A stretch of DNA of 64,000 bases from Streptomyces hyderabadensis (GTDB lineage Bacteria > Actinomycetota > Actinomycetes > Streptomycetales > Streptomycetaceae): NCBI RefSeq assembly GCF_020404845.1, contig NZ_JAIOJZ010000017.1, positions 62,001-126,000 of the forward strand, read 5' to 3'. The notes below the pieces were generated by a model. The model was not told where the DNA came from. It worked only from the letters and a program-made list of their open reading frames with translations, and did not search any database. Positions within the stretch are counted from its first letter, which is position 1. Every line of letters starts with the position of its first letter. The position numbers and the translations under genes were made by a program. Of this stretch, positions 8,644 to 64,000 are shown one piece after another.

Positions 8644-8663
8644 CCCTGAGCCTCCACGCTTGC

Positions 8664-8720
8664 CTGGACCGTCTGGACCGTCGGGACCGCTTGGAACCGC
8701 TTGGAACCACTCGGAACCGT
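8664..8720. repeat. Tandem short repeats in monooxygenase leader
   Basis: About five imperfect 10-11-bp units of the type TGGACCGTC / TGGAACCGCT run directly upstream of the monooxygenase ribosome site. They could be slippage or regulator half-sites. Confidence 0.5.
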
Positions 8721-8736
8721 GCCAGTGAACACTGGC
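8721..8736. promoter_or_regulatory. Inverted repeat, operator candidate
   Basis: GCCAGTG-AA-CACTGGC is a perfect 7-bp inverted repeat centred between the divergent monooxygenase operon and the MerR gene. A MerR dimer commonly binds such a dyad inside the promoter spacer. Binding is inferred. Confidence 0.5.
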
Positions 8737-8822
8737 GCAATGGGAGCGTAGAGCAGGTCCGTACTCATGGGTAGGGGTCGGGCGGAGGAAAGTTACCGGC
8801 GGTACACCATAAGGTCGTGGGC

Positions 8823-9470: not shown

Positions 9471-9486
9471 CTGCCCGCCCCGGCCG

Positions 9487-10290
9487 TCAGGGGCCGTAGA
9501 CCACCGTGACCGGCGCGTGGTCGGACCAGCGCTCGGCGTGCGTGGCGGCCCGCTCGACGTACCCCTTGAGCGCCCTGGCGGCCAGCCCGGGGGTGGCCAG
9601 GTGGTAGTCGATGCGCCAGCCCGAGTCGTTGTCGAAGGCCCGCCCCCGGTACGACCACCACGAGTACGGCCCCTCGACGTCCGGGTGCAGGGCGCGCACG
9701 ACGTCCACGTACCCGCCCTCGGACGGGTCGAGGACGCGGCCCAGCCACTCCCGCTCCTCCGGCAGGAACCCGGAGTTCTTCTTGTTGGCGCGCCAGTTCT
9801 TCAGGTCGGCCTCGCGGTGGGCGATGTTCCAGTCGCCGCAGACGACGACCTCGCGCCCCTCGGCGGCGGCCCGCTCGCGCAGCTCCTTGAGGTAGGCCAG
9901 GAACTCGCCCATGAAACGGACCTTCTCGTCCTGGCGCTCGGTGCCGACCTCGCCGGAGGGCAGATAGAGGGAGGCGACCGTCACACCGGGCAGGTCGGCC
10001 TCGACATAGCGGCCACTGGTGTCGAACTCGGTCGAGCCGAAGCCGATCCGGACCGCGTCGGGCTCACGGCGCGTGTAGAGGGAGACCCCTGCGCGGCCCT
10101 TGGCGGCGGCGGGGGCGTGCGTCACGTGCCAGCCCTCGGGCGCGCGGACGTGCTCCGGCAGCTGCTCGGGTTCGGCCCGCACCTCCTGGAGGCACAGCAC
10201 GTCGGCGGAGGTGTCGGCGAGCCACTCCACGAAGCCCTTCTTCGCGGCGGCGCGCAGACCGTTCACGTTCACGGAGGTCACGGTGAGCAC
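9487..10290 (-). CDS. xth: Exodeoxyribonuclease III (AP endonuclease family)
   Basis: 267 residues, the normal size of the exonuclease III/EEP family. Conserved motifs: NVNGLRA with the metal-binding Asn, LQEVRA with the metal Glu, GDWNIAH with the Asp/Asn catalytic pair, and C-terminal SDHAPV with the catalytic Asp-His. The protein cleaves DNA 5' to abasic sites and degrades 3' ends in base-excision repair. GTG at 10290 is chosen because conserved homology starts LTVTSVNVNG; residues further upstream are not family-like. It is flanked by MerR (convergent) and a divergent GNAT gene. Confidence 0.92.
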   Translation of the reverse strand: MLTVTSVNVNGLRAAAKKGFVEWLADTSADVLCLQEVRAEPEQLPEHVRAPEGWHVTHAPAAAKGRAGVSLYTRREPDAVRIGFGSTEFDTSGRYVEADLPGVTVASLYLPSGEVGTERQDEKVRFMGEFLAYLKELRERAAAEGREVVVCGDWNIAHREADLKNWRANKKNSGFLPEEREWLGRVLDPSEGGYVDVVRALHPDVEGPYSWWSYRGRAFDNDSGWRIDYHLATPGLAARALKGYVERAATHAERWSDHAPVTVVYGP

Positions 10291-10358
10291 CAGGGCACGA
10301 TACCGGCACACTGGACGATGTCCCGCTCCGGTCTCCGCATCGATATACGGTAGGAAGA

Positions 10359-10844
10359 ATGAACATACGCCGGGTCCCCTTCGACCACCCCGACGCCGTG
10401 AAGCTCAACGACGAGGTCCAGGCCGAGTACGACGTCCGCTACGGCGACGGCGGCGACGCCACGCACCTGGACCCGTCGGACTTCGCGCCGCCGAACGGCC
10501 AGTACCTGATCGCGTACGACGAGAACGACGTCCCGGTCGCCTCCGGCGGCTGGCGCAGCCAGGACGCCAACGACGAGGGCAATGAGGACGGGGACGCCGA
10601 ACTCAAGCGGATGTTCGTGATCGAGCAGATGCGCGGGCGCGGGCTGGCCCGCCGCATCCTGGCCGCCCTGGAGGAGGACGCCCGGGCGGCGGGCCGGACC
10701 CGGATGGTGCTGGAGACGGGCACCAAGCAGCCGGAGGCCGTGGCCCTGTACACGTCCAGCGGGTACGAGCCGTGCGGGAAGTTCGGCTACTACCGCTTCC
10801 ACGAGGAGAGCCTCTGCTACGCGAAGGCTCTCCGGACCCCGTAA
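10359..10844 (+). CDS. GNAT-family N-acetyltransferase
   Basis: 161 residues. GNAT fold: central strand LKRMFVIEQM followed by the acetyl-CoA pyrophosphate loop RGRGLARRIL (RxxGxA), then RMVLETGTKQPEAVALYTSSGY (motif B). GGAA is located just before the ATG at 10359. It transfers acetyl from acetyl-CoA to an amine; the acceptor is not predictable. It shares a divergent intergenic region with exonuclease III and converges on the surface-protein gene. Confidence 0.88.
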   Translation: MNIRRVPFDHPDAVKLNDEVQAEYDVRYGDGGDATHLDPSDFAPPNGQYLIAYDENDVPVASGGWRSQDANDEGNEDGDAELKRMFVIEQMRGRGLARRILAALEEDARAAGRTRMVLETGTKQPEAVALYTSSGYEPCGKFGYYRFHEESLCYAKALRTP

Positions 10845-10860
10845 GTCCCCGCGGCCGCCG

Positions 10861-12597
10861 TCAGGCCGTGCCGCCCGCCCGGCGACGGCGTGCGACGACG
10901 ATCAGCACGCCGCCCGCGGCGAGGGCCAGCGCCGCGCCCGCCGAGGCGAACAGCGCGGTGGAGCCGGTGGAGGCCAGCAGCCCGTCCCCGCCGCCCTGGG
11001 CGGACTGGCCGCCGGTCGTGCCCCCGGTGCCCCCGGCGGTGCCGGTCGCTCCGGTGCCGGCGCCGCCCGTGTCCGAGCCGCCGGCCGTCCCGGTGCCGCC
11101 CGTGGAGTCCGAGCCGCCGGTGGTGCCCGTACCGCCCGTGGAGTCCGAGCCGCCGGTGCCGCCGCCGCTGTCGCCCGGCGTCTCCTCGTCACCCGTGCCG
11201 TTCAGCACGATCCAGCCCGTGTCGTTGGACGGGTCGCCCTCCCACGGGTTGTCGTACTCGGGCAGCGCGATCTTGCCCTTGGCGCCCGCGACGACCTTGT
11301 CGATGCGCAGCTTGAAGGGGAAGGTGCGCGCGTCGTCCTCCAGGAACGGGGTGTCGGCGAAGCACAGGTACTCGGACGGTGACTCGTCGTTCATGGGGCT
11401 GCAGGGGCTGTCGACGACGCTGGCGCCCTCGGGGATCTGCACGCTGAAGCCGATCGGCTCGCCGCCCGAGCGCAGCCCGCCGAGCCAGGCGGGCCCGTGG
11501 TTGCTCAGGCCGACGTCGACGGTGACGGTCTCGCCCTGCTCGCCGGCGACGCGGGCGCCGGTGAGGTCGAGGTCGTAGGTGTTCTGCTGGGGCAGGTCGA
11601 TCTCGGCGTACTTGGTGTAGTCGCCGCTCTGGCCGCCCTTGACCGGCTTCAGGGTGAGCGTCCTGCCGGAGCCCTGCCGGTGGTCGGCGCCCGTCCGCAG
11701 CGCGCCGGCCTCCTTGGCACCGACCGCGTCGAAGCTGTAGCCGAAGATGTCGCCGAGCGCGAAGTCCGCGGTCTTCACCCGGACCGGTTCACTCAGTTCG
11801 TAGGCCGTGCCGGGCAGGAACTCGCCCTCGAAGGTGCACAGGGCGACGTGGCGGTAGCGGATCAGGTCGTCCTCGCTCTCCTCGGCGTACGAGCAGTTGT
11901 CGTACGAGTCGGGGAAGGACAGGCCGCGGCTGCCGGTGAAGCGGAGCACGACACCGTCGGCCGGCATGCTGCCGACGTTGCGGAAGCCGAGCGGGGCCTC
12001 GTAGGTGTCGCCGGGGCGGAAGCCCGCGGGTTCGGCGGGGAGCTTCTTCTTCAGCAGCTCCGGGCCGCCGACGAGCACGTCGACGGTGTGCTCGTTGAAC
12101 TCCAGGCCCTCGCCCTCGCCGGTGACTTCGATCTTGCCGTGGTCACCGGCCTCGGCGGTGTCCAGCAGGTCGAGCCGGATGTCCCAGGACGGGTTGTAGA
12201 CGTCGCCGGGGTAGAGGCTGCTCTCCTCGCAGACCGCGACCAGGCCGTCCACGGCGCAGGAATCCGGCAGGCCGACCTTGGCGAAGCCCTTGAGCGCGGT
12301 GGCGTCGATGGTGATCCGGTAGCCGCTGTTGGGGATCGGCTCCGGGTCCGTGTCGCTGTCCGGGTCGTACTCCCCCGGGCCGGTGAGCCCGAGTTCGATC
12401 TGCGGCTGCCCGGGTTCGCCCTCGGCTCCGTCGAGCGCCAGGTCCACCTTGTCCGGACCGGTGATCGTGACGGGCAGCGGTGCCTGACCGTCCGCCGCGT
12501 GCGCGACGCCGGTCAGTCCGGCCGCGGCGAGCCCGGCGGCTGCCGCCCCGGCCACGGCCGCACGCGCCCAGGGCGAGCGCAGGAAGCCAGTTCTCAT
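10861..12597 (-). CDS. Secreted LAXTG sortase-anchored surface protein
   Basis: 578 residues. A signal peptide (basic MRTGFLRSPWARAA, then an Ala/Gly-rich core ending AHAAD) is followed by beta-rich extracellular repeats with paired cysteines (PDSCAVDGLVAVC, SPCSPMNDESPSEYLC), a Gly/Thr/Ser linker (about residues 480-540), the sorting motif LASTG, a membrane helix and a tail RRRRAG. LAXTG is the recognition motif of Streptomyces class E sortases, which also anchor long chaplins. Its task on the hyphal or spore surface is unknown. No sortase gene is adjacent. ATG at 12597 starts directly at the signal peptide. Confidence 0.85.
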   Translation of the reverse strand: MRTGFLRSPWARAAVAGAAAAGLAAAGLTGVAHAADGQAPLPVTITGPDKVDLALDGAEGEPGQPQIELGLTGPGEYDPDSDTDPEPIPNSGYRITIDATALKGFAKVGLPDSCAVDGLVAVCEESSLYPGDVYNPSWDIRLDLLDTAEAGDHGKIEVTGEGEGLEFNEHTVDVLVGGPELLKKKLPAEPAGFRPGDTYEAPLGFRNVGSMPADGVVLRFTGSRGLSFPDSYDNCSYAEESEDDLIRYRHVALCTFEGEFLPGTAYELSEPVRVKTADFALGDIFGYSFDAVGAKEAGALRTGADHRQGSGRTLTLKPVKGGQSGDYTKYAEIDLPQQNTYDLDLTGARVAGEQGETVTVDVGLSNHGPAWLGGLRSGGEPIGFSVQIPEGASVVDSPCSPMNDESPSEYLCFADTPFLEDDARTFPFKLRIDKVVAGAKGKIALPEYDNPWEGDPSNDTGWIVLNGTGDEETPGDSGGGTGGSDSTGGTGTTGGSDSTGGTGTAGGSDTGGAGTGATGTAGGTGGTTGGQSAQGGGDGLLASTGSTALFASAGAALALAAGGVLIVVARRRRAGGTA

Positions 12598-12722
12598 GGT
12601 GTGTTTTTCTTCCGTTCCCCAGACGACAAGAAGGGTGCCGGTGCACGGCACCGCACACGGGTGACCCACGGGAAACGGCCATGGTTGCGCTGTACATGAT
12701 CACGGATGCGTCTCGGCGCCGG

Positions 12723-13880
12723 TCAGGAGTGGCGGTGGTAGGCCTTGTTGGCGATGCGCCAGCCGTCGTCGACGCGGACCAGCAGGAAGACGTCGGTGAA
12801 CGTGTCCGCCCCGTGCGCGAGCGTCATGGTGGCGGTCGCGACGGTCCCGTGGACGTCGACGGCGTCGATACGGCGCGTCCGGGCCGGCTCGTCCGGGGCC
12901 GGCCGGCCCGGGAAGAGAGCGCAGTACTCGTCCAGGCGCCAGGAGACGAACGCGCCCTCCCGGATCCCCTCGATGTGGGCGCTGGGCAGGAACGCGCCGC
13001 GGAAGTGGGCGGGGTCGCCGGTGGCGTGTCCGCGCAGGTAGGCGCGCAGCGGTGCGAGTACGGCGGCCGGTACGGCGGGGACCGTGGCGGCGACGGCGAA
13101 GTCGGCCTCGGGGGCGGCGGGGGTGTCGGCAAGGCCCGCCGCGCTGCGCAAGGGGGTGTCCGACGCGGCGGCCAGCAGGGCCATGTCCTTGGCCAGCGCG
13201 CCGATCGTGAACTCGGCCGGGGCGGCGGCCGGCCCGTCGAGCAGGAAGGGCCGCTTGCGGGCCACGAGGGCGCCTAGCCCGCCGAGTTCGAGGACGTCCA
13301 GGGTCTGGGTGCGGGGCAGGCCGAGGGCGTCGGCCTGCCGCAGTGCGTCGCGCAGCGCGAGGACGGCTCCGGCGAGGCCGTTGTTGGCGATCAGCTTGAG
13401 CGCGGCGGCGGTGGCGGCGTCGTCCATGTGCCGGACGGTGCCCAGCGTTTCCAGCACCGGCCGGATCCGGTCGAGTGCGCTCCGCTCGGCGGCGGCCAGG
13501 ATCTGCAGGGCTCCGGCGGCGGCGGACGGCACCGAGCCGAGCACCGGCGCGTGGACGTAGGACGGGCCGAACTGCCGGGCCAGCGCGGATGCTTCGGCGG
13601 GGGCGACGGTGCTGGTGTTGAGCACGATCGCGTCCGCCGGCAGCGCGTCACGGACCTCGTCGAGCACCTGTCGGCAGGCCGGGCCGTCGAAGAGGGCCAG
13701 CACGACGAGGTCCGCCCGCGCGACGGCCTCGCGCGGGTCCTCGGTCACCTTGACGCTGCCTGCCGCGCGCCCCGAGCGTGTCCAGCCGACGACGTCCCGG
13801 TCGTGGGCGGCCAGTCGTGTCGCGATCGCTCCGCCCATGCGCCCCAGGCCGAGGACGGCGATCGTGTGCGGTGTGGTCAT
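12723..13880 (-). CDS. NAD(P)-binding 6PGDH-type oxidoreductase fused to NTF2/lumazine-binding-like domain
   Basis: 385 residues. Residues 1-280 are a beta-hydroxyacid-dehydrogenase/imine-reductase-like enzyme: Rossmann GLGRMGGAIA near the start, LNTSTVAP, and the helical domain with KLIANNGLAGAV (Lys in the catalytic-helix position). Residues about 285-385 (LRAYLRGHATGDPAHFRGAF ... DDGWRIANKAYHRH) match the putative lumazine-binding/SnoaL-like fold, which usually stands alone. ATG at 13880 precedes the Rossmann strand directly. Divergent from a LysR regulator, which is probably its controller. Reaction unknown. Confidence 0.85.
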   Translation of the reverse strand: MTTPHTIAVLGLGRMGGAIATRLAAHDRDVVGWTRSGRAAGSVKVTEDPREAVARADLVVLALFDGPACRQVLDEVRDALPADAIVLNTSTVAPAEASALARQFGPSYVHAPVLGSVPSAAAGALQILAAAERSALDRIRPVLETLGTVRHMDDAATAAALKLIANNGLAGAVLALRDALRQADALGLPRTQTLDVLELGGLGALVARKRPFLLDGPAAAPAEFTIGALAKDMALLAAASDTPLRSAAGLADTPAAPEADFAVAATVPAVPAAVLAPLRAYLRGHATGDPAHFRGAFLPSAHIEGIREGAFVSWRLDEYCALFPGRPAPDEPARTRRIDAVDVHGTVATATMTLAHGADTFTDVFLLVRVDDGWRIANKAYHRHS

Positions 13881-13975
13881 ACGCGCCACGGTGGTGCATC
13901 CCCTGGCATGCGACAAGCGCAGATTTCGCATGCCCACCCTGCGCCGCCCGCATACCGAATGCCCATACTGCCGTC

Positions 13976-14959
13976 ATGGATCTGACTGTGTGGCGGACTT
14001 TCGTGACCGTGTGCCGGGTGGGATCGCTGTCGGCGGCGGCAGCCGAGCTGAATCACACCCAGTCGGCCGTCTCCCGGCAGATCGCCGGGCTGGAGCGGCA
14101 GTTCGGGGTGCCCCTGGTGGAGCGCCATGCCCGCGGGGTGCGCCCGACGCCGGCCGGTGAGGTGTTCCGGCGCCATGCCCTGGCCACGCTCGGCGAGGCC
14201 GACCGCGCCGTGCGCGCCGTGCGAGACGTCCGCGACGGAGTGGGCGAGCGGCCGCTGGCCGTCGGGGCGACGCCGTCGCTCGCGGCGGGAATCGTTCCGG
14301 AGGCCGTCCGGGGCCTGTTGAAGCAGACCGGTTCCCTCCGGTGGAGCCTGCTCCCCGGTCTGAGCGCCCATCTGCACAGCCGTGTGGTCGCCGGCGACCT
14401 CGACATCGCCGTCGTCACCGACGCTCCGCCGGGGCTGGCCGTGGACCCGCGGCTGGAGCGCCGGTTCCTCGGGCTGGACGAGATGGTCGTCGTACTGCCC
14501 TCAGGTCATCCGCTGGCCGGGCGCGGGCCGGTGCGCATCCAGGAGTTGGCCGACGAGACCTGGGTCGAGGACAACGAGGGCTCGGCGGCGCTCCTGGGCC
14601 GGCATGCCGCCCGTGCCGGAGTCGGCGTCCGCATCGACCTCACCGCGGCCGATCTGCCCGGCAAGCTGGCCCTGGTCGCCACCGGTCACGCCATCGCGCT
14701 GATCCCCGGAGCGCTGACCCGCGCACTGCGGGCCGACGTCACCACGGTCGGCCTGGTGGACCCCCCGGCCCGCGGCATCTACACGATCACCCCGCGCCGC
14801 GACCCCCACCCCTGCTCGGCACCCCTGCTCGAACTGCTCGCCACGGCCTTCGCCGCGATCCGTCCGGCGCAGACTCCGCACCAATCCACCACGACGTCAA
14901 AGCCCCGGTCGGGAGATCCCGACCGGGGCTTTGAGCTGCGTGGACCTGAGGGGATTTGA
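13976..14959 (+). CDS. LysR-family transcriptional regulator
   Basis: 327 residues. N-terminal winged HTH (RTFVTVCRVGSLSAAAAELN, HTQSAVSRQIAGLE) and a periplasmic-binding-like effector domain (PLAVGATPSLAAGIVPEAVR ... GDLDIAVVTDAPP). Divergent, 95 bp from the dehydrogenase fusion gene, so a role as its regulator is likely. The coding frame runs through a perfect terminator hairpin (14897-14934) and into the antisense of tRNA-Ala before the stop at 14957, so about the last 20 residues (TTTSKPRSGDPDRGFELRGP) are dictated by RNA structure and probably carry no function. Confidence 0.9.
   Translation: MDLTVWRTFVTVCRVGSLSAAAAELNHTQSAVSRQIAGLERQFGVPLVERHARGVRPTPAGEVFRRHALATLGEADRAVRAVRDVRDGVGERPLAVGATPSLAAGIVPEAVRGLLKQTGSLRWSLLPGLSAHLHSRVVAGDLDIAVVTDAPPGLAVDPRLERRFLGLDEMVVVLPSGHPLAGRGPVRIQELADETWVEDNEGSAALLGRHAARAGVGVRIDLTAADLPGKLALVATGHAIALIPGALTRALRADVTTVGLVDPPARGIYTITPRRDPHPCSAPLLELLATAFAAIRPAQTPHQSTTTSKPRSGDPDRGFELRGPEGI
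14897..14934 (-). terminator. Strong terminator behind tRNA-Ala
   Basis: TCAAAGCCCCGGTCGGGA / TCCCGACCGGGGCTTTGA form a perfect 18-bp stem with a 2-nt gap. It begins seven bases after the tRNA 3' end on the minus strand and overlaps the LysR reading frame; it may serve both convergent transcripts. Confidence 0.85.
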
Positions 14960-15014
14960 ACCCCTGGCCCCCTCGATGCGAACGAGGTGCGCTACCGGAC
15001 TGCGCCACAGGCCC
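14941..15014 (-). tRNA. tRNA-Ala (anticodon CGC)
   Basis: 74 nt. Acceptor GGGCCTG/CAGGTCC (one G-U), D stem GCGC/GCGC, anticodon stem CCTCG/CGAGG around loop TTCGCAT (anticodon CGC, codon GCG), T arm AGGGG-TTCAAAT-CCCCT, discriminator A. CCA is not encoded. Followed by a strong hairpin terminator. Confidence 0.95.
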
Positions 15015-15069
15015 TTGCAACGAGTGAAACTCTAGCACCCCGTCCGGCCTGCTCAAAAATCCCTTCCGG

Positions 15070-16344
15070 CTACTCGTTGGCCGCGCGGGGACGGTCGCCG
15101 TCCTCGTACTGGTCGAAGAGCGGTGTGCGGCCCCGTTCCCGGGCCCGGCGGGCCGAGGCGGCGCGGCGGGCGTCGCTGCGCCCCGGGGTCTCCGGGCGCT
15201 CCTCGGCCGGCGCGGCCGCCGGGCGGTCCCGGTCCGCTCCCTGGTCCCGGGCGGCGGGCGCGGCGTCCTCCTGGTCGGGCGCGACGGTGCTGGAGCGGGC
15301 CGAGCTCCACGCGTCCGGCGCCGCGAGGTCCACGTCGGGTGTGGCGCGCGGGGCGACCGGCGCGGTCACGTAGGTGGGCAGGGGCACCGGGACGGGGTCC
15401 CAGCTGTCGCCCTGCGGGCGCCCCCGGCGCTCCCGCTGCTGGTCGACCCACTCGGCGTGGTCGGTCTGCTCGACCAGGGCCCGCCGGTCCGCGGCGAGCG
15501 CCGACATTCCGGCGCCGGGCTCCGCCTCGGGTCCGTCGTCCGGCTCCTCGGCGTCGAGGTCGCCGAGGGCGCCGGGGGCGGAGACCGCGGGTCCGCGGCC
15601 GCGGGGGCGGGGGTCGCGGTCCCGCAGTCGCTGCGCGGCGGCCTCGGCCTGGCGGCGGTCCATCTGGAAGGCGAAGCGGCGGCGCTCCTGGGCGCGCAGG
15701 TGGGCGATGTAGGCGCTGAGCAGCACCGCGGGCACTCCGGGCGCCCACAGGAAGGCGAGCCCGCCGACCGCCGCGACGACCGAGCCGAGCGTGAAGGCCA
15801 GGAACAGCATCACCGTCGTACGCCGCCGGCGGGCGAGCACCTTGCTGCGCCGGGCCCGTGCCGCGGCCGCCCCCGGCGAGACCGGTGCGCGCCGGGCCTG
15901 CGGCACCCGCCCCCGTGCCGATGCCGGGGCGGTGCCGGACGCGGCCGGGTGGCCGGGCTCCGCGGACTGGCCACGTCTCGGGCCGTCGCCGGTTCCGCCC
16001 GCCCGGGGGCGCGCCGCTTCGGCCCGGTCCGCCGCCTGCCGCGGCGGGGCCGGCCGGGAGTGCCGCCGGGTCCTGGACACGGCGAAGGCCCGGACGTCCA
16101 CCGAGTCGGTGACGGCGTCCGGGGCGTCGGCGTCGGGCTCCGCCTCGTCGGCGGAGCGCGACCGCAGGTCCTTGGCGTACCGGCGCTCCATGCCCGCCCG
16201 TCCGGACAGGAGCCGGATGGCGGTGCTGAAGCGTTCCGTCGGACGGGCCTCGTTCAGCTCGTCCTGCCTACGGAGCCACATCGGCACCAAGTAGGCGGCC
16301 CAGGCCCCGACAATGACTGCGTAGATGAGGCCGCTGCTGCTCAC
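15070..16344 (-). CDS. sepX: SepX/GlpR-like membrane cell-division protein
   Basis: 424 residues. One membrane helix at the extreme N-terminus (LIYAVIVGAWAAYLVPMWLR), an acidic/disordered cytoplasmic section, two adjacent helices at about 178-222 (TVMLFLAFTLGSVVAAVGG, LWAPGVPAVLLSAYI), then a long charged disordered tail ending FDQYEDGDRPRAANE. Size, topology and the neighbourhood (rimJ, glp/moeA, galU, 5-FTHF cyclo-ligase) match GlpR of Corynebacterium and SepX of Streptomyces, which stabilise the FtsZ divisome; GlpR is the membrane receptor of Glp. The name is inferred from synteny and topology. Ser/Thr kinase substrates of this type often are disordered, but no site is shown. Confidence 0.7.
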   Translation of the reverse strand: MSSSGLIYAVIVGAWAAYLVPMWLRRQDELNEARPTERFSTAIRLLSGRAGMERRYAKDLRSRSADEAEPDADAPDAVTDSVDVRAFAVSRTRRHSRPAPPRQAADRAEAARPRAGGTGDGPRRGQSAEPGHPAASGTAPASARGRVPQARRAPVSPGAAAARARRSKVLARRRRTTVMLFLAFTLGSVVAAVGGLAFLWAPGVPAVLLSAYIAHLRAQERRRFAFQMDRRQAEAAAQRLRDRDPRPRGRGPAVSAPGALGDLDAEEPDDGPEAEPGAGMSALAADRRALVEQTDHAEWVDQQRERRGRPQGDSWDPVPVPLPTYVTAPVAPRATPDVDLAAPDAWSSARSSTVAPDQEDAAPAARDQGADRDRPAAAPAEERPETPGRSDARRAASARRARERGRTPLFDQYEDGDRPRAANE

Positions 16345-16513
16345 GCCTCACACGGTAGAGGGGTTTGCGTGAGGCCATCCGCCAATTGAGCCGGTGTGTC
16401 GCACGATCTGGCTGATATTTCGAACTTTTCTTGTGACCGATCCGATCAGCCGACTGCCAGGAGCGCGAAATTACCCGCTTCCGGATGGTCGCGACCCGAT
16501 CAATTTCGAACGT
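16345..16513. promoter_or_regulatory. AT-rich promoter region of sepX-like gene
   Basis: 169 bp that are clearly richer in A+T than the surroundings. The 9-mer ATTTCGAAC occurs twice as a direct repeat (16417-16425 and 16503-16511), each containing the palindrome TTCGAA. It separates the sepX-like gene from the rimJ operon, so sepX has its own promoter here. Confidence 0.45.
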
Positions 16514-17191
16514 TTATTCAATTCCCGGGGTTGTCGTGTTGCCCGTGGTGCCGCTGTTCCCCGCGTTCGGCGTGCCGCGGTGCTGCCGTGACCGGTGCCA
16601 TCGCCGCAGCAGGCCTTCGGGAACCTCTTCCGCGGTGAGCGCGAAGACGAGATGGTCCCGCCAGGCTCCGTCGATGTGCAGATATCGCGGCCGGAGGCCC
16701 TCCTCGCGGAATCCGAGTTTCTCCACGACCCGGCGGCTGGGCGCGTTCTCGGGGCGAATGCAGACCTCGACGCGGTGCAGCCCGACGGTGCGGAAACAGT
16801 GGTCCACGGTCATCGCCACGGCCGTCGGCATCACCCCGCGCCCGGCCACCGCCTCGTCCACCCAGTAGCCGATGTGCCCGGAGCACATCGAGCCCCAGGT
16901 GATGCCGGCCACCGTCAACTGGCCGACCAGCCGCCCCTGGTACTCGATGACGAACGGCAGCATCCGGCCCGCGTGGGCCTCGGACCTCAGGTGCCGCACC
17001 ATCTGCCGGTAGGTCGGCCGGTGCGCGATCGGGCCGCCGGGCCCGGGGGGCGGAATGGTGGCCTCCCACGGCCGCAGCCAGTCCCGGTTGCGCCGGTTGA
17101 CCTCGCGCCAGATCCGCTGGTCGCGCAGTCTTATCGGCCTCAGGACGATGTCGCCGTCCCTCAGCTCCGCGGGCCAGGACGGGCTGTTCAG
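16514..17191 (-). CDS. rimJ: RimJ/RimL-type GNAT N-acetyltransferase
   Basis: 225 residues if started at CTG 17191. Conserved RimJ features: LRDGDIVLRPIRLRD, WREVNRRNRDWL, GHIGYWVDEAVAGRGVMPTA (acetyl-CoA loop GRGxxxxA) and HRVEVCIRPENAPSRRVVEKLGF. The family acetylates N-termini of ribosomal or other proteins. No ATG, GTG or TTG occurs in frame upstream of 17002, although clear homology does; the CTG overlaps the mog stop as CTGA, exactly like the ATGA couplings around it, with GGGGG upstream. Starting at ATG 17002 would lose the first strand and helices. Part of the mog-moaC-glp operon. Confidence 0.85.
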   Translation of the reverse strand: MNSPSWPAELRDGDIVLRPIRLRDQRIWREVNRRNRDWLRPWEATIPPPGPGGPIAHRPTYRQMVRHLRSEAHAGRMLPFVIEYQGRLVGQLTVAGITWGSMCSGHIGYWVDEAVAGRGVMPTAVAMTVDHCFRTVGLHRVEVCIRPENAPSRRVVEKLGFREEGLRPRYLHIDGAWRDHLVFALTAEEVPEGLLRRWHRSRQHRGTPNAGNSGTTGNTTTPGIE

Positions 17192-17727
17192 CTCGCACCC
17201 CCACCACTGGCGGGTCTCGGGTGGTCGCCGCCGCGGAGCTGGTCCACGGCGTGCTTCAGCAGCGGCTCCAGCACGGCGAGGCCGTCCTTCACCCCGCCGG
17301 AGGAGCCCGGCAGGTTGACGATCAGCGTCCCGTCCGCCACTCCGGCCAGGCCCCTGGAGAGCACCGCGGTCGGCACCTTGTCCCGGCCGTACGCCCGGAT
17401 CGCCTCCGCGATGCCCGGGACCTCGTAGTCGATCACCGCCCGGGTCGCCTCGGGGGTGCGGTCGGTCGGCGAGACGCCGGTGCCGCCGGTGGTGACGATG
17501 ACGTCGTAGCCCGCTTCGGCGCCCGCGCGCAGGGCGGCTTCGACGGGGTCGCCGTCGGGGACGACTCGCGGGCCGTCGACGGCGAACCCGAAGCGGCGCA
17601 GGCCCTCGGCGACCAGCGGGCCGCCCTTGTCCTCGTAGACACCGGCGGCGGCCCGGTTGGACGCCGTGACGACCAGGGCGGCGTACGGCCCGGGGAGGGC
17701 CCCTCCCACACCGTCGTCCGGCGTCAT
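17188..17727 (-). CDS. mog: Molybdopterin adenylyltransferase (MoaB/Mog family)
   Basis: 179 residues. Family motifs: [33 protein letters not shown] (the MoCF signature, GGTG binding molybdopterin) and [16 protein letters not shown]. It adenylylates molybdopterin before molybdenum insertion by MoeA. ATG at 17727 overlaps the moaC stop (ATGA) and its stop overlaps the rimJ CTG start. Placed directly downstream of moaC and glp/moeA, consistent with a molybdenum-cofactor operon. Confidence 0.92.
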
Positions 17728-18236
17728 GACCTGGTCCAGTCGCCGGACTTGCCGCCCGTCTTCTGCTCCACCCGCACGTCCGTGATGACCGCTCCCTTGT
17801 CGACCGCCTTGACCATGTCGACCACGGTGAGCGCGGCGACGGAGACCGCGGTGAGCGCCTCCATCTCGACGCCCGTGCGATCCGTCGTCTTCACCGTGGC
17901 GGTGATCTCCACGGCGTCGTCCGCGACCGACAGGTCCAGTTTCACACCGGAGACCGACAACGGGTGGCACAGGGGGATCAGGTCGGGGGTGCGTTTGGCG
18001 CCCATGATGCCCGCGATCCGGGCGGTGGCCAGGGCGTCGCCCTTCGGCACGCCCTCGCCGCGCAGCAGCTCGACCACGCGGGGCGCGACGAGGACGCGTC
18101 CGCTGGCGCGGGCGGTGCGGGCGGTCACGTCCTTGCCGGACACGTCGACCATCCGGGCGGCGCCCGCCTCGTCGATGTGCGTCAGCCGGTCCTGCGGGTC
18201 CTGTCCGCTGCCCGGCGGTCGGTCCTGCGTACTCAT
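17724..18236 (-). CDS. moaC: Cyclic pyranopterin monophosphate synthase MoaC
   Basis: 170 residues, normal length. [24 protein letters not shown] and [21 protein letters not shown] are the three conserved MoaC regions holding the active-site Lys, His and Asp residues. It converts the MoaA product into cPMP in molybdenum-cofactor synthesis. ATG at 18236. 86 bp separate it from the glp/moeA gene upstream, and its stop overlaps mog. moaA is not present in the window. Confidence 0.95.
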
Positions 18237-18322
18237 GCTCGTGTGGCGCTCCCGGTCCTGGCCCGGCGCGGTGCGGCGCGTGGGCCTGCTGTGCGCGACA
18301 CGGTACCGCCATCGGGGACCGG

Positions 18323-19672
18323 TCAGCCGAGCAGGACCACCTCGACCCGGGCGCCGGGCTCGACGGACTCGGTGTCCTCGGGGACGACGATCAGCGCGTT
18401 CGCGTGCGCGAGGGCGGCCACCAGGTGGGAGCCGGAGCCGCCGACCGGGGTGACCGATCCGTCGGCGTGGCTGCCCCGCAGGAACTGCCGGCGGCCCTTG
18501 GGCGAGGTCAGCGCCTTGTCCGCGGCCAACGACGCGGTGACCGTCGGGCGGTGCACGTCGGGCAGGCCCATGAGGGTGCGGATCGCCGGGCGCACGAACA
18601 GCTCGAAGGAGACGTACGACGAGACCGGGTTGCCCGGCAGGGCGAGCAGCGGGGTGTGGTCCGGGCCGATCGAGCCGAAGCCCTGGGGCTTGCCGGGCTG
18701 CATGGCGAGCTTGCGGAAGTCCACGCCGCCGCCCGGCTCGTCCTCGTCCCCGACGTGCGCCAGCGCCTCCTTGACCACGTCGTACGCCCCGACGCTCACG
18801 CCGCCGGTGGTGACCATCAGGTCGGCGCGCACCAGTTGGTCCTCGATGGTGGACCGCAGGGTCTCGGCGTCGTCGGCGACCGCGCCCACCCGGTAGGCGA
18901 TGGCACCGGCGTCCCGGGCGGCCGCGGTGAGCGCGAAGCTGTTGGAGTCGTAGATCTGACCGGCGGCCAGCTGCTCGTCGGGCTGGACCAGTTCGCTGCC
19001 GGTGGAGAGCACCACCACGCGCGGGCGCGGGCGCACCCGTACCGTGCCCCGGCCGATCGCGGCGAGCAGGCCGATCTGCGGCGGGCCGAGGACCGTGCCG
19101 GCCGCCAGGGCGCGGTCGCCGGCGCGGACGTCGCTGCCCTTGGCACGCACGTGCGCGCGTGCCTCGGCCGGCCGGTACACGTGGACGTGGCCCTCGGCGC
19201 CCTCCGGGGCCAGGCTGCGGGCGCGCATGCCGGCCACCGGGCCCTCGCCGAGCCCGCCGTCGGTCCACTCGACGGGGACGACGGCCTCGGCGCCGGGCGG
19301 GAGCGGGGCACCGGTCATGATCCGGGCGGCCTGGCCGGGGCCCACGGCGACCGGGTCGGTCTGGCCGGCGGCGACGTCCCCGACGACCTCCAGGACCGCG
19401 GGGAACTCCTCGCTGGCCCCGGCGACGTCGGTGACCCGCACCGCGTACCCGTCCATGGAGCTGTTGTCGAACGGGGGCAGGGACAGCGGCACCGTGACGT
19501 CGTCGACCAGGACGCAGCCCTGGGCGTCGAGCAGGTTCAGCTCGATGGGGTCCAGGGGGCGGACGGTGGACAGGACGTCGTCCAGGTGGTCCTGCACCGA
19601 CCACAGCCGGTCCGGACCGGAGCCCGCGGCGGCGTGGTCGTGGCCGGTGTCACGGTGTGCGCTGCTGCTCAA
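18323..19672 (-). CDS. glp: MoeA/gephyrin-like protein (Glp)
   Basis: 449 residues. MoeA/gephyrin E-domain family: [54 protein letters not shown], and [20 protein letters not shown]. MoeA inserts molybdate into adenylylated molybdopterin. However the neighbours galU upstream and rimJ, sepX/glpR downstream match Glp, the MoeA paralogue that binds the FtsZ C-terminus and GlpR in Corynebacterium. Both roles are possible. TTG at 19672 is the only sensible start: AAGGA overlaps the galU stop (TAAGGACGTTG). Cytosolic. Confidence 0.85.
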
Positions 19673-52369: not shown

Positions 52370-52840
52370 GTGGCCCTGGCCGCCGCCCTCGTCAGCGCCG
52401 CCGACCTACTCCACCCCTCGACCGTCGCCGTCGGCGGCTTCGCCCAGGCCGTCCCCGGCTTCACCGACCAGGCAGCAGCCCAGCTCTCCCTGCTCGCCCG
52501 TCCGGGTGCCCTGCTCCCCCCGGTCGTACCGGCGGCCCTCGGCGCCCTCTCCTCCCTGCACGGCGCGGTCGCCCTGGCCCGGACGACGGCCACCCCTGCC
52601 CCGGACACCGCCGCCGCCCCCCCCCTGGCGGCACCCGAAGCAACAGCGAAAATCCCCAGGTCAGGCCCCCCGTGCTGGCGGCAGCCCCCCACTTCCCCCC
52701 ACCCCTCCACCTCGATCCGCTACGCTGTTCACGTCAGCGGCCAGGTCACGCAGGATGTCCGCCCGGAATACCGTGGCGATCACCAGCAGACCCCCACTGC
52801 ACGCCTTCGTAGCTCAGGGGATAGAGCACCGCTCTCCTAA
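52370..52840 (+). pseudogene. Possible remnant of a small membrane-associated protein
   Basis: The frame from CTG 52280 (overlapping the IclR TGA) reads LTPRRATAEDLIAALRNPEE ... VALAAALVSAADLLHPSTVA ... LPPVVPAALGALSSLHGAVA, with codon use like a real gene and hydrophobic helices. After about codon 110 it loses protein character and runs into tRNA-Arg, where it stops. The 3' end may have been truncated when the element integrated, or this may be a decayed gene. GTG 52370 is the first normal start. Not assigned to a family. Confidence 0.3.
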
Positions 52841-52875
52841 AGCGGGTGTCGCAGGTTCGAATCCTGCCGGGGGCA
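52803..52875 (+). tRNA. tRNA-Arg (anticodon CCT), integration site
   Basis: 73 nt. Acceptor GCCTTCG/CGGGGGC (two G-U), D stem GCTC/GAGC, anticodon stem CCGCT/AGCGG around loop CTCCTAA (anticodon CCT), T arm GCAGG-TTCGAAT-CCTGC, discriminator A. Directly followed by an integrase gene pointing toward it, so its 3' half is probably the attachment site (attL). Confidence 0.95.
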
Positions 52876-52882
52876 CATGGGA

Positions 52883-52946: not shown

Positions 52947-54101
52947 TCATGCACGATCGGGGCGCCTCTTCCTGAGCAGCCGGTCCATGTGGCTCATGGC
53001 TTCGCGCTGCGTGTCCTGGACGACGTGGGTGTAGACGTCCATGGTGATGCTGATCTGGGAGTGGCCCAGGATCTCCATCACGACGCGGGGCGCGACTCCA
53101 GCCGCCGTGAGAAGCGTGGCGGTGCCGTGCCGCGCGTCGTGCAGCCGGATGACGCGGAGACCGGCGGACTCGGCGACGCGGGTGAAGGAGCGGTAGACAT
53201 TCCGAGGCTCGACCTGACGCCCGGTGCGAGTGGTGAAGACGTAGCCGGACTCCTGCCACTCCTCCCCTGCCTTGGCCCGTGCAGCCGCCTGCCGCATCCG
53301 GTGCCAGCGCAGGGACGCGATGCAGAGGGCGGGCAGCGGAACGGCCCGGCGACGGCGGCTCTTGGGATCGTCGTCGTAGAGGACACCGCGACGACGCTGC
53401 GTCTGCTGGCGGACGTAGAGAACGCGGCTGTCGAGGTCGAGGTCTGACCAGCGCAGGCCGATGATCTCTCCCCGGCGGAGCCCCATGGCGATGGCGAGCA
53501 CGAAGGCCGCGTAGAGCGGGTCCTTACGGGAGGCCGCGAGGAAGTCGAGCGTCTCGTCGAGGGTCCAGGGCTTCAGTTCGCGGTTGTCGGTGCGAGGCGG
53601 CTCGACCAGCTTGGCGACGTTGCGCGTGATCAGTTCCTCGCGGCAGGCGGAAGACAGCGCCGATCGCAGGACGCGGTGAGATTCCTTGGCAGTCGCCGCA
53701 GTCGTCTCCTTCTCCAGACGGACGAGGAAGCGGCGCACGTCGGCGACGCCGAGGGATTCAAGCCGCTTGGCGCCGAGCAGCGGCACGAGGTAGAGCCGGA
53801 CGTGCGCCTCGTACTTGTCGTACGTGCTGAGCTTCCGCCGAGGCTTGATGACGTTGTCCAGCCAGTACGGCAGCCACTCGGAGAGCTTGGCCGACTTGGT
53901 GGGCACGGGCACGCCCTGGTCCACTTTGGCCAGCAGCTCCCGGCGCTTGACGTCGCACTCGGCCCAGGTCTTGCCGTAGGCGAACTTGCGAGCGCGAGTG
54001 CCGTCCGGCTGAAGGACGTACACGGCGCACTGGTATCGGCCGTCCTTGCGCTTGGTGATGGTGCCGGCGCCGTTCGGATTGCGCTTGCGCGGACCAGCCA
54101 T
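52947..54101 (-). CDS. int: Site-specific tyrosine integrase
   Basis: 384 residues. N-terminal arm-binding part (GAGTITKRKDGRYQCAVYVL), SAM-like core-binding domain (about 65-150) and catalytic domain: first Arg in AMGLRRGEIIGLRW, HxxR in RLHDARHGTATLL, His in MEILGHSQISITMD, and nucleophile Tyr in VYTHV. Integrates the element into tRNA-Arg next door and, with Xis, excises it. ATG 54101 overlaps the xis stop (TGATG). Typical AICE int, last gene of the xis-int unit. Confidence 0.95.
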   Translation of the reverse strand: MAGPRKRNPNGAGTITKRKDGRYQCAVYVLQPDGTRARKFAYGKTWAECDVKRRELLAKVDQGVPVPTKSAKLSEWLPYWLDNVIKPRRKLSTYDKYEAHVRLYLVPLLGAKRLESLGVADVRRFLVRLEKETTAATAKESHRVLRSALSSACREELITRNVAKLVEPPRTDNRELKPWTLDETLDFLAASRKDPLYAAFVLAIAMGLRRGEIIGLRWSDLDLDSRVLYVRQQTQRRRGVLYDDDPKSRRRRAVPLPALCIASLRWHRMRQAAARAKAGEEWQESGYVFTTRTGRQVEPRNVYRSFTRVAESAGLRVIRLHDARHGTATLLTAAGVAPRVVMEILGHSQISITMDVYTHVVQDTQREAMSHMDRLLRKRRPDRA

Positions 54102-54295
54102 CAGGCAGCCTCCTCGATCTGGCCGAGGACGAAGTCCCGAACAGCGGCAGCAGGGATACGACGCGCCCCATCGATCTTGATCGAGACGAGTCGACGCGAG
54201 CGGATCAGGTCGTAGACCTTCGAGCGTCCGACCTTGAGACGCGCCATGACTTCCGGCACGGTCAGCAGCTCGGCGGTGGCAGTGGCGGCGGTCAT
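54101..54295 (-). CDS. xis: Excisionase (MerR/HTH_17-like)
   Basis: 64 residues. TVPEVMARLKVGRSKVYDLI and RSRRLVSIKIDGARRIPAAAVRDFV form the winged-helix excisionase fold. It bends DNA so that int recombines attL and attR. ATG 54295 overlaps the Rep stop (ATGA); its stop overlaps the int start. Coupling of rep, xis and int makes replication and excision follow one transcript. Confidence 0.92.
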   Translation of the reverse strand: MTAATATAELLTVPEVMARLKVGRSKVYDLIRSRRLVSIKIDGARRIPAAAVRDFVLGQIEEAA

Positions 54296-60373: not shown

Positions 60374-60498
60374 CCTACTTCATCAAGGCCCACGCACGGC
60401 GCGGGCGCGCGCCGCCTCTACGGCGCGGCCCGCCTCCTGTCTTCGCCCCGGCTGGCCGCGCCCGGCGGCGCGCTCGGCGGCTGCGGGCATGAAGTGGG
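60374..60498. repeat. GC-rich block flanked by inverted repeat
   Basis: CCTACTTCAT (60374-60383) pairs with ATGAAGTGGG (60489-60498), nine of ten bases; in between are many alternating GC runs (GCGCGGGCGCGCGCCGCC). No gene. Confidence 0.5.
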
Positions 60499-60549
60499 GA
60501 GACACCCTCTGTGGCTGGGGCGGTCGGCTCCACGGCTTTAGGCAGCCAC

Positions 60550-60658
60550 TTTGGGGCGAGCCTCTAAGATCTTGGCCCCAACGTCGTGCTTTAACGGGCA
60601 GGTCCACAGACTGCCCGACTCGCCATCAGCTTACGGGGCCAAGATCACTCGCCCCAAA
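60550..60658. repeat. 109-nt palindromic structure with nested stems
   Basis: Outer arms TTTGGGGCGAG (60550-60560) / CTCGCCCCAAA (60648-60658); middle arms GATCTTGGCCCC (60568-60579) / GGGGCCAAGATC (60635-60646); inner arms CGGGCAG (60595-60601) / CTGCCCG (60611-60617). 30 bp of perfect pairing in one extended hairpin. Together with 60374-60498 it fills the 383-bp gap between Nudix and the next gene. Candidates: single-strand origin, transfer locus, structured RNA or MITE. Confidence 0.8.
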
Positions 60659-60749
60659 GCAGCTCCAGCCCAAAGCCGCTCCGCCGACCGTCAGTGCAAC
60701 GATGCGGAACTGGGAGTGGCGGCGAGCAAGATCCGGCAGACTTGGAAAA

Positions 60750-61313
60750 ATGGACGCAGGACTCGCAGCTGTACTTGGCGCCGCCGTGGGCGCTGTCGGC
60801 ACCGGGGGAGCTGGCGTGATAGCCGCGCTCCTCGCCCGTTCGCAGGCTCGCTCACAGATACTCGCAGAGCATGTGCGGCTCATCAGAGAGCCGCGGAAGG
60901 CCACATACGTCGCCTTCGTCGAGGCATGCCGGGAAGAACACGATCGATTGGACAATGCCTGCCAATTGCTGGATTTGCACCTTAATTCCCCGATCGTTGC
61001 AGTGCGCGAGGAGCGCTATGAAGGGGCCCGCAACTTGTACGACGCCTCGACCGAGGCCCGGCGTGCACTCAAGCACCTCGAAGCTCAGGTCTACATCGAG
61101 GGCCCGCCATCGGTGATCTCAGCAGCAGTGGATCTCAGCGCCAGCCTGACAGACTTCAGGCATGAAGTGCTCGACGTAATGGCCCCCGATGCGAGCGGGA
61201 CCATAGAGGCCATGGAAGCGGCTCGAACCGCTTCCTATGAGAAATACCTGGATTTCCTCTATAGGGCTTCCGAAGCCGTGGGTGCAGATGGCCTTCAGAA
61301 GTCACCTAAGTAG
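60750..61313 (+). CDS. Membrane-anchored helical protein of unknown function
   Basis: 187 residues. One N-terminal membrane helix (DAGLAAVLGAAVGAVGTGGAGVIAALLAR), then a long helical, charged cytoplasmic part (RSQILAEHVRLIREPRKATY, VAFVEACREEHDRLDNAC, RRALKHLEAQVYIEG). Coiled-coil-like proteins of this build are widespread single genes in Streptomyces. ATG 60750 fits directly before the helix although only GGA is present upstream. GC and codon bias are somewhat lower than in the chromosome to the left, compatible with acquired DNA. Not a known AICE core gene. Confidence 0.7.
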   Translation: MDAGLAAVLGAAVGAVGTGGAGVIAALLARSQARSQILAEHVRLIREPRKATYVAFVEACREEHDRLDNACQLLDLHLNSPIVAVREERYEGARNLYDASTEARRALKHLEAQVYIEGPPSVISAAVDLSASLTDFRHEVLDVMAPDASGTIEAMEAARTASYEKYLDFLYRASEAVGADGLQKSPK

Positions 61314-61968: not shown

Positions 61969-62002
61969 GCCCACGGCATCTGAACTGGTCAGAGCCGTGG
62001 GC
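61969..62002. terminator. Bidirectional terminator with T-tract
   Basis: GCCCACGGC-A-TCTGA-loop-TCAGA-GCCGTGGGC: 9 + 5 paired bases with one bulge, followed on the plus strand by CTTTGTT. It lies downstream of the minus-strand operon ending at 62094. Confidence 0.75.
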
Positions 62003-62093: not shown

Positions 62094-62393
62094 TTAGGAC
62101 TGGAGATCGCTCACCGCCAGGAGGTGACCGCGGCTGGTTGCCACGCGGACCACGTCTCGTAGGGCTCGGGTCACTTCGGTCAGCATGAGCCGCAGGTCAT
62201 CGCGGCTGGCGTCCTGGTCGCCGAGGGCTCCCGCGGCCCGCTCCAGAAGATCGGTTGCCATCCCGAACTGTACCGCTTCGATGTTGTCCGCCAGGCGGGA
62301 CATGTAGCCGCCGCTGTCATCGGTGCTCAGGTAGCAGGGCTTGCCGTCCGGGCCCGACCACGGGAGGAGTCGTAGTTCGTTCTGCGGCGTCAT
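62094..62393 (-). CDS. Conserved small helical protein of a GntR operon
   Basis: 99 residues. TPQNELRLLPWSGPDGKPCY, LSTDDSGGYMSRLADNIEAV, then helices FGMATDLLERAAGAL and LRLMLTEVTRALRDVVRVAT. No membrane helix. I recognise the type as a hypothetical protein often seen near GntR genes in Streptomyces, without known role. ATG 62393 overlaps the GntR stop (ATGA). Last gene of the operon; followed by a terminator. Confidence 0.7.
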   Translation of the reverse strand: MTPQNELRLLPWSGPDGKPCYLSTDDSGGYMSRLADNIEAVQFGMATDLLERAAGALGDQDASRDDLRLMLTEVTRALRDVVRVATSRGHLLAVSDLQS

Positions 62394-63133
62394 CTGTGCG
62401 CCTGCCTTTCTTCGATCACGTGGTGGGTGCTGAAGACGGCGTCGACACGATCCCCAGGGAACACCAGTAGTGCCGCCTCAATGACTCGCCCGGTGCTATC
62501 TGCCGCAACGCGAGTGATCGCGAGGACGGCCAAGGTTGTGTTGATCCGCAGGGTCGACGCCTCATCCGGCGTCGGGAGACGGGCGGACACCGTCTCGTGC
62601 ACCTCGGCTGGCGGCGGGTCCGGCACAGAGAAGCTGGCTTCCGCCCACGCCCTTGAGGACCGGTTGCCGAGCGCCGTGGTCGGTGTCAGGTCTCGCGGTA
62701 CGTAGACGCGGGCCAGGCTGTGCGGGGACTCTCCCTCGTAGCTGAGTCGGAGGAATTCGGTCAGTGGACTTCCGACATCCACCTTCAGCAGCGCTGTCAG
62801 GTGCCCCCGCGCGGAAAGTGCCGTAGTGCGCACTGTCACGCGCAGGTCCACGTCTGCGGCAGTTCGAGGATCCAGCGTGCCCCATCCACCGACGTACGTG
62901 ATCTTTCGCAGGGGGCGGCGGACGAAGTTGCCCTTACCGTGGATCTTCTCGACGAGGCCTTCTCCCTGGAGTACGGCGAGGGCGCTTCGCAGTGTGGCCG
63001 TGCTGACCTTGTACCGGTCGGCCAGGGCGGACTCAGACGGAAGCCGTTCGCCGGGTCCGACTCGACCGGTCGTGATCTGGCGTCTCAGGTCGTCAGCGAC
63101 GACGAAGCGGCGAGACGTCATGGACCGCGTCAC
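62390..63133 (-). CDS. GntR/HutC-family regulator
   Basis: 247 residues from GTG 63133. Winged HTH: FVVADDLRRQITTGRVGPGE, PSESALADRYKVSTATLRSA, EGLVEKIHGKGNFVRRP; UTRA domain: LTALLKVDVGSPLTEFLRLS ... VYVPRDLTP ... LAVLAITRVAADSTGRVIEA. GTG 63133 is chosen because it overlaps the previous stop as GTGA; ATG 63121 is a second candidate. Embedded in an operon of small overlapping genes, so it may regulate that operon in response to a small metabolite. Confidence 0.88.
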   Translation of the reverse strand: MTRSMTSRRFVVADDLRRQITTGRVGPGERLPSESALADRYKVSTATLRSALAVLQGEGLVEKIHGKGNFVRRPLRKITYVGGWGTLDPRTAADVDLRVTVRTTALSARGHLTALLKVDVGSPLTEFLRLSYEGESPHSLARVYVPRDLTPTTALGNRSSRAWAEASFSVPDPPPAEVHETVSARLPTPDEASTLRINTTLAVLAITRVAADSTGRVIEAALLVFPGDRVDAVFSTHHVIEERQAHR

Positions 63134-63354
63134 CGCCTTCTCGTCATCCGCACGGCGACGAGCCGGGTCCGCCCGTTCATGGTCAGCAGCTCCCCCGACT
63201 CGAACAGGAGTTGCTTCGCGCCCTGGGGCAACTGAAAGAGGTCGCTCACCCGGCATGCCCGACCGCCGACTTGGATGATGTCGCCCCGCAGAACGGTGGC
63301 TGCCGTGATCTCGACGTTGGATGCCAGCGCACCCCCGGGGGCCCAGTTGCTCAC
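63130..63354 (-). CDS. 74-residue beta-rich small protein
   Basis: SNWAPGGALASNVEITAATV, LRGDIIQVGGRACRVSDLFQ, LPQGAKQLLFESGELLTMNG, RTRLVAVRMTRRR. Short strands with GDIIQVGG resemble small SH3-like or hint-like barrels, but no family is assigned. GTG 63354 overlaps the preceding stop (GTGA) and the stop overlaps the GntR start. It likely works together with its neighbours, since the overlaps couple their translation. Confidence 0.65.
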   Translation of the reverse strand: MSNWAPGGALASNVEITAATVLRGDIIQVGGRACRVSDLFQLPQGAKQLLFESGELLTMNGRTRLVAVRMTRRR

Positions 63355-63554
63355 CGCTTCACCGCCCGTCGCGTGGAGTGGTCCGGCGCGGGGTGGCAGG
63401 GGCAGGCGCACGTCTCGTAGATCACCGGCAGGTCGACCCGCGCAGGAGATGGCGACGCTTCCGTACAGGCTGCGTGAGTGCCAACTCTGCATGCAGTCGA
63501 CCGGTAGGCAGCAGCCCCGATCTCCGATACGTGGAGCTGTTGACGAGGGAGCAT
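63351..63554 (-). CDS. 67-residue cysteine-containing protein
   Basis: LPRQQLHVSEIGAAAYRSTA, CRVGTHAAC, then PARVDLPVIYETCACPCH. Five cysteines and several histidines, in two groups (CRVGTHAAC and CACPCHPAPDH), suggest a zinc or metal site. ATG 63554 overlaps the preceding stop by one base (TGATG). The frame has fewer GC3 codons than typical, which weakens confidence, but the overlaps on both sides favour a real gene. Confidence 0.55.
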   Translation of the reverse strand: MLPRQQLHVSEIGAAAYRSTACRVGTHAACTEASPSPARVDLPVIYETCACPCHPAPDHSTRRAVKR

Positions 63555-63865
63555 CAGCGAGCACCTGCCAGAGCCGAGAATGCCTCAGCCGACAGTCGCG
63601 GCGCCACGACCACCGAGCGCTGACGTGCACGCTGCCGCTCCCAGGCCAACACGTACGGACGGACGAGCACGTTGTCCTCGCCCAGGAGCAGGCGAAGGCG
63701 GTCAGCGGTGTCCGGCATCCACTCCGGGACGGCCGGCGGTTCTACGGCGAGCACGGGAGGCGTCGCCACAGCCGTCCGGGACGACGTTAAGTCTCGGCGG
63801 TGCCTGCCCTTGGGGAAGTACCGCGCTCTGGCGAGCGAGACGGCACGGCGGATACGGTTGAGCAC
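63554..63865 (-). CDS. 103-residue protein of the overlapping operon
   Basis: Arg-rich N-terminus (LNRIRRAVSLARARYFPKGR), Pro/Val middle (PPVLAVEPPAVPEWMPDTAD) and a C-terminal helix (RLRLLLGEDNVLVRPYVLAW, ERQRARQRSVVVAPR). GGAG lies nine bases before GTG 63865. Not recognised. A short gap of 12 bp follows the upstream partial gene. The segment VRPYVLAWERQRARQR is often seen in Streptomyces proteins of unknown function beside regulators. Confidence 0.6.
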   Translation of the reverse strand: MLNRIRRAVSLARARYFPKGRHRRDLTSSRTAVATPPVLAVEPPAVPEWMPDTADRLRLLLGEDNVLVRPYVLAWERQRARQRSVVVAPRLSAEAFSALAGAR

Positions 63866-63877
63866 GCTGCTCAGCTC

Positions 63878-64000
63878 CTATCGCTGATAGCTCGGTCCCC
63901 CGACATCGCCCGTCGTGGGGACCGCTTTGCGTACGACCGCCCAAAGGGTGCGGCCGTTCAAGCTGGTGGCGTGAAGCCCGAATCGATCGGCCTCCGCCAC
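63878..64000 (-). CDS. C-terminal end of an unidentified protein (partial)
   Basis: The last 40 codons of a gene that enters from beyond the window: AEADRFGLHATSLNGRTLW, AVVRKAVPTTGDVGG, PSYQR, then TAG. The stop is followed within 12 bp by the GTG of the next gene, so it heads or continues the same operon. Too short to name. Confidence 0.6.
   Translation of the reverse strand: MAEADRFGLHATSLNGRTLWAVVRKAVPTTGDVGGPSYQR

Follow-up and report, generated by a model that had tools for sequence, protein, structure and literature searches.

A conserved seven-gene module with a possibly repressor-guarded operon at the attachment-site end of pSAM2-type elements in Streptomyces

Conjugative elements are a main route by which genes flow in antibiotic-producing Streptomyces, and their small genes are mostly unannotated. 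The stretch of Streptomyces hyderabadensis DNA analyzed here (64,000 nucleotides of contig NZ_JAIOJZ010000017.1, referred to as the window) ends in a tightly packed run of small genes around a GntR regulator, which raises the question of whether these genes form one unit, whether they belong to a mobile element, and what their products may do. An earlier note, made from the sequence alone, described at least six overlapping genes; re-reading the sequence recovers six minus-strand genes from 64156 to 62094, named A, B, C, D, G2, and E. Extension past 64000 identifies A as the first gene; no further operon gene is found upstream of it, as a shared promoter region and a divergent GntR gene (G1) start there. 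The genes are as follows:

64156-63878, minus strand (63878 to 64000 inside the window): gene A, 92 aa, GTG start past the window edge, predicted alpha/beta fold
63865-63554, minus strand: gene B, 103 aa, very basic (pI 11.7), missing from some loci
63554-63351, minus strand: gene C, 67 aa, with invariant Cys/His
63354-63130, minus strand: gene D, 74 aa, predicted beta barrel
63121-62390, minus strand: gene G2, GntR/UTRA, 243 aa from the ATG at 63121
62393-62094, minus strand: gene E, 99 aa, the last gene of the operon
64236-64991, plus strand: gene G1, GntR/UTRA, divergent from the operon and past the window edge

The tight junctions reported previously (a 12-bp gap, TGATG, GTGA, GTGA, and ATGA) are present as described. 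The ATG start of G2 lies 8 bp past D; an alternative in-frame GTG at 63133 accounts for the GTGA junction given in the note. The regulator placed within the operon is confirmed as a GntR/UTRA protein (GntR, 6.1e-18; UTRA, 5.1e-20), and five small proteins (A, B, C, D, and E) are counted rather than four. Every operon gene is under selection as a protein, as seen in codon-position and dN/dS patterns, and the junction spacings of 12, -1, -4, 8, and -4 are nearly always kept across 42 loci of the genus. The transcript is likely closed by the following feature:

61970-62002, minus strand: terminator-like hairpin after E, 9-bp perfect stem, z = -6.3

A hairpin 3' of E occurs in 35 of the 42 loci, often with other sequence (a raw count, without a matched background). 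Because the junctions recur in most of these loci, the proteins are under selection and a hairpin follows E, the gene arrangement is not due to chance, and the anatomy of the operon is considered secure. Conserved order and junctions, a dedicated promoter region, and the terminator-like hairpin likewise support the view that the genes are one co-expressed unit.

The note held that its reading would fail if the gene set were not conserved as a unit; a gene-neighborhood search does not bear this out, as G1-A-B-C-D-G2-E recurs in exact order in 53 of 80 GTDB loci, with B alone missing in 8 more. Its proposal that such tight coupling implies one complex or pathway is not supported: some loci lack B, G2, C, or D, which makes an obligate complex of all six unlikely. 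The 8.18-Mb source genome contains a second copy of the module (C88; L005:7143-18186) with the same genes at 73-77% DNA identity over approximately 3.04 kb (61961-65003, window numbering). In this copy E is without an ATG start, a G1 3'-end fragment lies approximately 10.8 kb away in the same orientation, and no AICE genes were detected near the module. In the source genome A, B, C, and E are each confined to two loci, those of the two module copies. D is found in 52 of 150 Streptomyces genomes, with strong matches in 43 of these, and its named relatives are all from Streptomyces. Weak relatives of D also occur at other Streptomyces loci (L077-L088), several of which are without any further module gene. 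Diverged versions of the module (A, G1, and usually G2) are present in three other genera of the family, where the neighbors in some loci include an AlpA-type HTH gene and another GntR gene, and nothing of pSAM2 type was detected up to 20 kb away. A sample of 346 genomes of the class, which drew few members of the three module-bearing genera, yielded no A beyond the genus. The families of the five unnamed proteins, a putative repressor, and its candidate operator travel jointly through the genus, and a diverged form of the same set reaches neighboring genera in the company of other genes.

Whether the operon is cargo of a mobile element or a separate system was left undecided in the note. Beyond the window edge, at 65317-65359, lies a 43-bp exact copy of the tRNA-Arg 3' end, which forms an attachment site and defines the following features:

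52803-52876: tRNA-Arg(CCT), with the att repeat within the tRNA at 52834-52876
52834-65359: AICE, bounded by the att repeats and carrying the module

The tRNA is followed by a tyrosine integrase (Phage_integrase, 8.7e-28) beside the tRNA gene with the repeated 3' end, a small HTH gene (approximately 54101-54295; Xis-like as read by eye), the replication initiator RepSA (859 bits vs. a 700-bit cut-off), a DUF2637 protein, an FtsK/SpoIIIE-type Tra (FtsK_SpoIIIE, 5.2e-49), an SCO3933-family protein, a GntR protein that is KorSA-like by position, and a Nudix protein. The att copy beyond G1, together with the tRNA repeat on the integrase side, places the operon inside a pSAM2-type AICE as its att-end module. 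The carrier resembles known elements in its tyrosine integrase in a tRNA site, RepSA, Tra, SCO3933-family (Pra-like), GntR, and Nudix components, as these are given in PMC3218068 and PMC8584621; it differs in that no account of a seven-gene att-end module was found in the accessible portions of the AICE literature. Just past the att repeat (65360-65946) lie a piece of an integrase 3' end and another copy of the G1 3' end, probably left over from a related element in tandem.

The mobile-element half of the earlier alternative is therefore upheld, however the module is not variable cargo. What varies is the slot between E and the Nudix gene; the module sits between this slot and the attachment site and is constant, with D lying 3-15 kb from that Nudix gene in 34 of 44 Nudix-type AICE loci (Nudix genes counted at at least 79% identity). 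Nine of the ten remaining loci, all nine scanned, contain neither module nor operators apart from one weak E-like match, and the module is consequently not essential to such elements. One module-bearing locus (L048) is an island of approximately 11.4 kb between tRNA-Ser 3'-end copies (7989-19512) with a ParA-like ATPase gene and a transposase; no integrase or Tra was found among the subset of its ORFs scanned. It is very improbable, and disfavored here, that the block is an ordinary chromosomal locus merely lying beside mobile elements. Some module loci do have no AICE gene within 9-20 kb, and the second copy in the source genome adjoins an ettA-like ABC-F gene; against this, the att repeat of the present element lies beyond the module, att copies enclose the module in three additional loci, linkage to the AICE Nudix gene is strong, and the distribution is patchy. 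The module is a standard and apparently undescribed part of AICEs that move between Streptomyces chromosomes.

G1 and A are separated by 79 bp, and this region, past the window edge, contains the candidate switch:

64196-64226, G1-A promoter region: twin CTAGTNNACTAG sites (candidate operators), 19 bp apart

CTAGTNNACTAG occurs at only four places in the genome, two per module copy; the reversed pattern, used as a control, also gives four matches, so the number is unremarkable and it is the placement that is notable. The pair is spaced 17-19 bp apart in 66 of 80 GTDB loci, and in a comparison of 109 distinct intergenic sequences most positions of the block surrounding the candidate operators are at least 95% conserved, although the synonymous sites of G1 have diverged (median dS 0.66). 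The dN/dS of G1 is 0.09, compared to 0.42 for A (41 homologues), 0.57 for B, 0.46 for C, 0.34 for D, 0.32 for G2, and 0.33 for E; the regulator and its candidate sites thus stay unchanged as the remaining products drift. G1 is proposed to bind the twin sites; their GT-N2-AC form matches the general GntR pattern and departs from the usual HutC spacing (PMC4494728). A second palindrome beside the operators, TCACT-N3-AGTGA, is exact in 69 of the 109 sequences. Binding of G2 to it was considered; L081, a locus where no G2 was found, retains a similar sequence. A scan for sigma-70-type promoters found none.

The explanation preferred here, given a probability of roughly four in ten, is that the genes form a repressor-guarded (kil-kor-like) operon, the att-end module of a Streptomycetaceae AICE family, which is switched on when the element enters a naive cell. 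G1 would occupy the two sites in the shared promoter region and silence its own gene and the operon A-B-C-D-G2-E wherever the element is already resident; repression would be lifted by entry into a G1-less cell, or by a ligand of the UTRA domain of G1. A to E would then be made from one transcript with coupled translation, G2 may tune or terminate the pulse of expression, and the five small soluble products would assist the element in settling or persisting in its new host, a role for which the kil-kor or stability loci of other Streptomyces elements offer the comparison. In favor of this explanation are the conserved seven-gene unit, the att bounds and Nudix linkage that fix its AICE location, the operator pair unique to the module, the invariant intergenic block, the strong constraint on G1, the element-like module in other genera with different neighbors, and the lack of membrane segments in the small proteins; counted against it are the GT-N2-AC spacing, the nine module-less Nudix AICEs, the loci without AICE genes nearby, and the tRNA-Ser island.

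In kil-kor systems (korSA of pSAM2, SCO3932) a HutC/GntR-type repressor adjoins its own conserved promoter region and guards element genes, and a korSA homologue could not be deleted, in keeping with a kil-kor repressor (both from PMC8584621). G1 likewise adjoins a conserved promoter region; it carries GntR/UTRA domains, and its candidate operators are unique and conserved. It differs in being additional to the element's KorSA-like GntR and in facing a dedicated operon of small genes with possibly toxic products. If the guarded-operon explanation is true, it would define a second control switch of AICEs and predict which elements repress one another, and G1 with its operator would be a handle on events when an element enters a new cell.

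The slot between E and the Nudix gene differs in content from locus to locus. The 107 ORFs from such slots include AAA ATPases of PtuA/AriA type (5), C5 methylases (3), and TIR, GmrSD, and Pycsar-effector proteins (2 each), as well as an Eco29kI-type enzyme, HEPN, and DndB-like proteins; these counts (L089-L166) are by family rather than by whole system and come from simple ORF calls, with PADLOC applied to the slot alone. The slot in these loci is a hotspot for anti-phage defense genes. In the window's own small cargo slot there is a 274-aa ORF at 60489-61313, with no Pfam or NCBIfam match. Given this neighborhood, the module could itself be an anti-phage or superinfection-exclusion system in which G1 restrains potentially toxic small proteins until an infection or the arrival of another element is sensed, a reading that is unlikely. 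Defense genes are abundant directly beside E, and fast-evolving small proteins under a tight repressor would be in keeping with such a role; the module, however, is constant whereas the adjoining defense genes vary, A-E find no counterpart in Pfam, PHROGs, or NCBIfam, and G1 is frozen, unlike immunity genes that set specificity. Two strong copies of D occur in none of 42 positive genomes (source genome excluded) vs. 6.6 expected under a Poisson model that ignores relatedness, which would suit exclusion; this single-copy pattern could equally well stem from a Pif-like Nudix gene or from occupied att sites.

The position of the module at the att end also fits a stability locus. In this reading some or all of A-E, perhaps only two of them, would serve the excised or integrated element in partition, replication control, or post-segregational killing. 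The tRNA-Ser island retains the module beside its ParA-like ATPase gene and without transfer genes, though the ATPase is found at that one locus only and no toxin, antitoxin, or partition family is recognized in A-E; this reading is given a low probability. PMC4170104 describes small DNA-binding proteins and palindromes of pIJ101 that serve stability: the spdA2/sps locus resembles the module in having a small plasmid gene and repeated 12-bp palindromes conserved among elements, while its palindromes lie in a coding region and are bound by SpdA2 rather than a GntR protein, a distinction drawn from the published description and not from sequence.

None of A-E has a match above threshold in Pfam, PHROGs, or NCBIfam; a PDB sequence search with A, C, D, and E found nothing, and no relatives were found for A, B, or E. 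No membrane segments are present in A-E (maximum 19-residue Kyte-Doolittle mean 1.13 vs. 2.02 for the element's SpdB-like protein), and SpdB-type spread proteins were ruled out as their identity since hydrophobic segments are lacking. C has the invariant residues C-x2-G-x-H-x2-C and C-x-C-x-C-H and is probably a metal binder, judging by these motifs; it also weakly matches phrog_6622 (E = 0.0025). The structure prediction foreseen in the note was run for A and D. A is predicted to have an alpha/beta fold (pLDDT 75) without a clear relative; a ferredoxin-like fold was considered and rejected, as its Z of up to 6.9 is not above background. D is modeled as a beta barrel (pLDDT 81; four other models 61-68) resembling EF-P/eIF5A domain I, although D is a single 74-aa domain. 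Nearly every structure it matches belongs to EF-P/eIF5A or Woronin-body relatives (VIA Z up to 7.5, under the trusted level of 8; 1.5 Å over 56 residues for 5wxk_B; best Foldseek E 0.011). Alignment to the genome's own EF-P by hhalign is not significant, and EFP_N matches the D family at only 0.006, in 7 of 40 members. Given a Z under 8 and the lack of a significant profile alignment, the likeness of D to EF-P is a lead and not membership.

The predicted EF-P-like barrel and the presence of two UTRA regulators would also fit a lysogenic-conversion-like operon that alters host development, metabolism, or translation to the benefit of the host when G1 or G2 binds a small molecule; the AICE regulator SCO3932 affects host antibiotic genes, according to PMC8584621. 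The lysogenic-conversion-like reading is decidedly improbable, as the genome has no operator pair outside the module copies, leaving G1 without evident host targets, and the operon encodes no enzyme or transporter.

Returning to the repressor-guarded operon, the near identity of G1 and its sites across the genus implies that module-bearing elements should form one cross-repressing group. A bolder form of this, quite unlikely as a whole, is that all module-bearing AICEs are one cross-regulating group in which a resident silences the entry operon of a newcomer, the operon fires only in naive cells, and D, as a free-standing EF-P-domain-I-like protein, acts on the ribosomes of the recipient while the element becomes established.

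The coupled translation envisaged for the operon may have a counterpart at the junction of its first two genes:

63852-63935, minus strand: near-invariant RNA/DNA stretch at the A/B junction, predicted fold z = -4.3

An Rfam search gave two sub-threshold matches only, to unrelated families, and because the stem columns are nearly invariant, covariation gives no test of the hairpin. Approximately 90 bases are nearly invariant at this junction among 91 distinct sequences, and its fourfold sites vary less than those elsewhere (0.12-0.22 vs. approximately 0.44). The loop of the predicted hairpin contains the stop codon of A and the ribosome-binding site of B; this model suggests translational coupling or a binding site.
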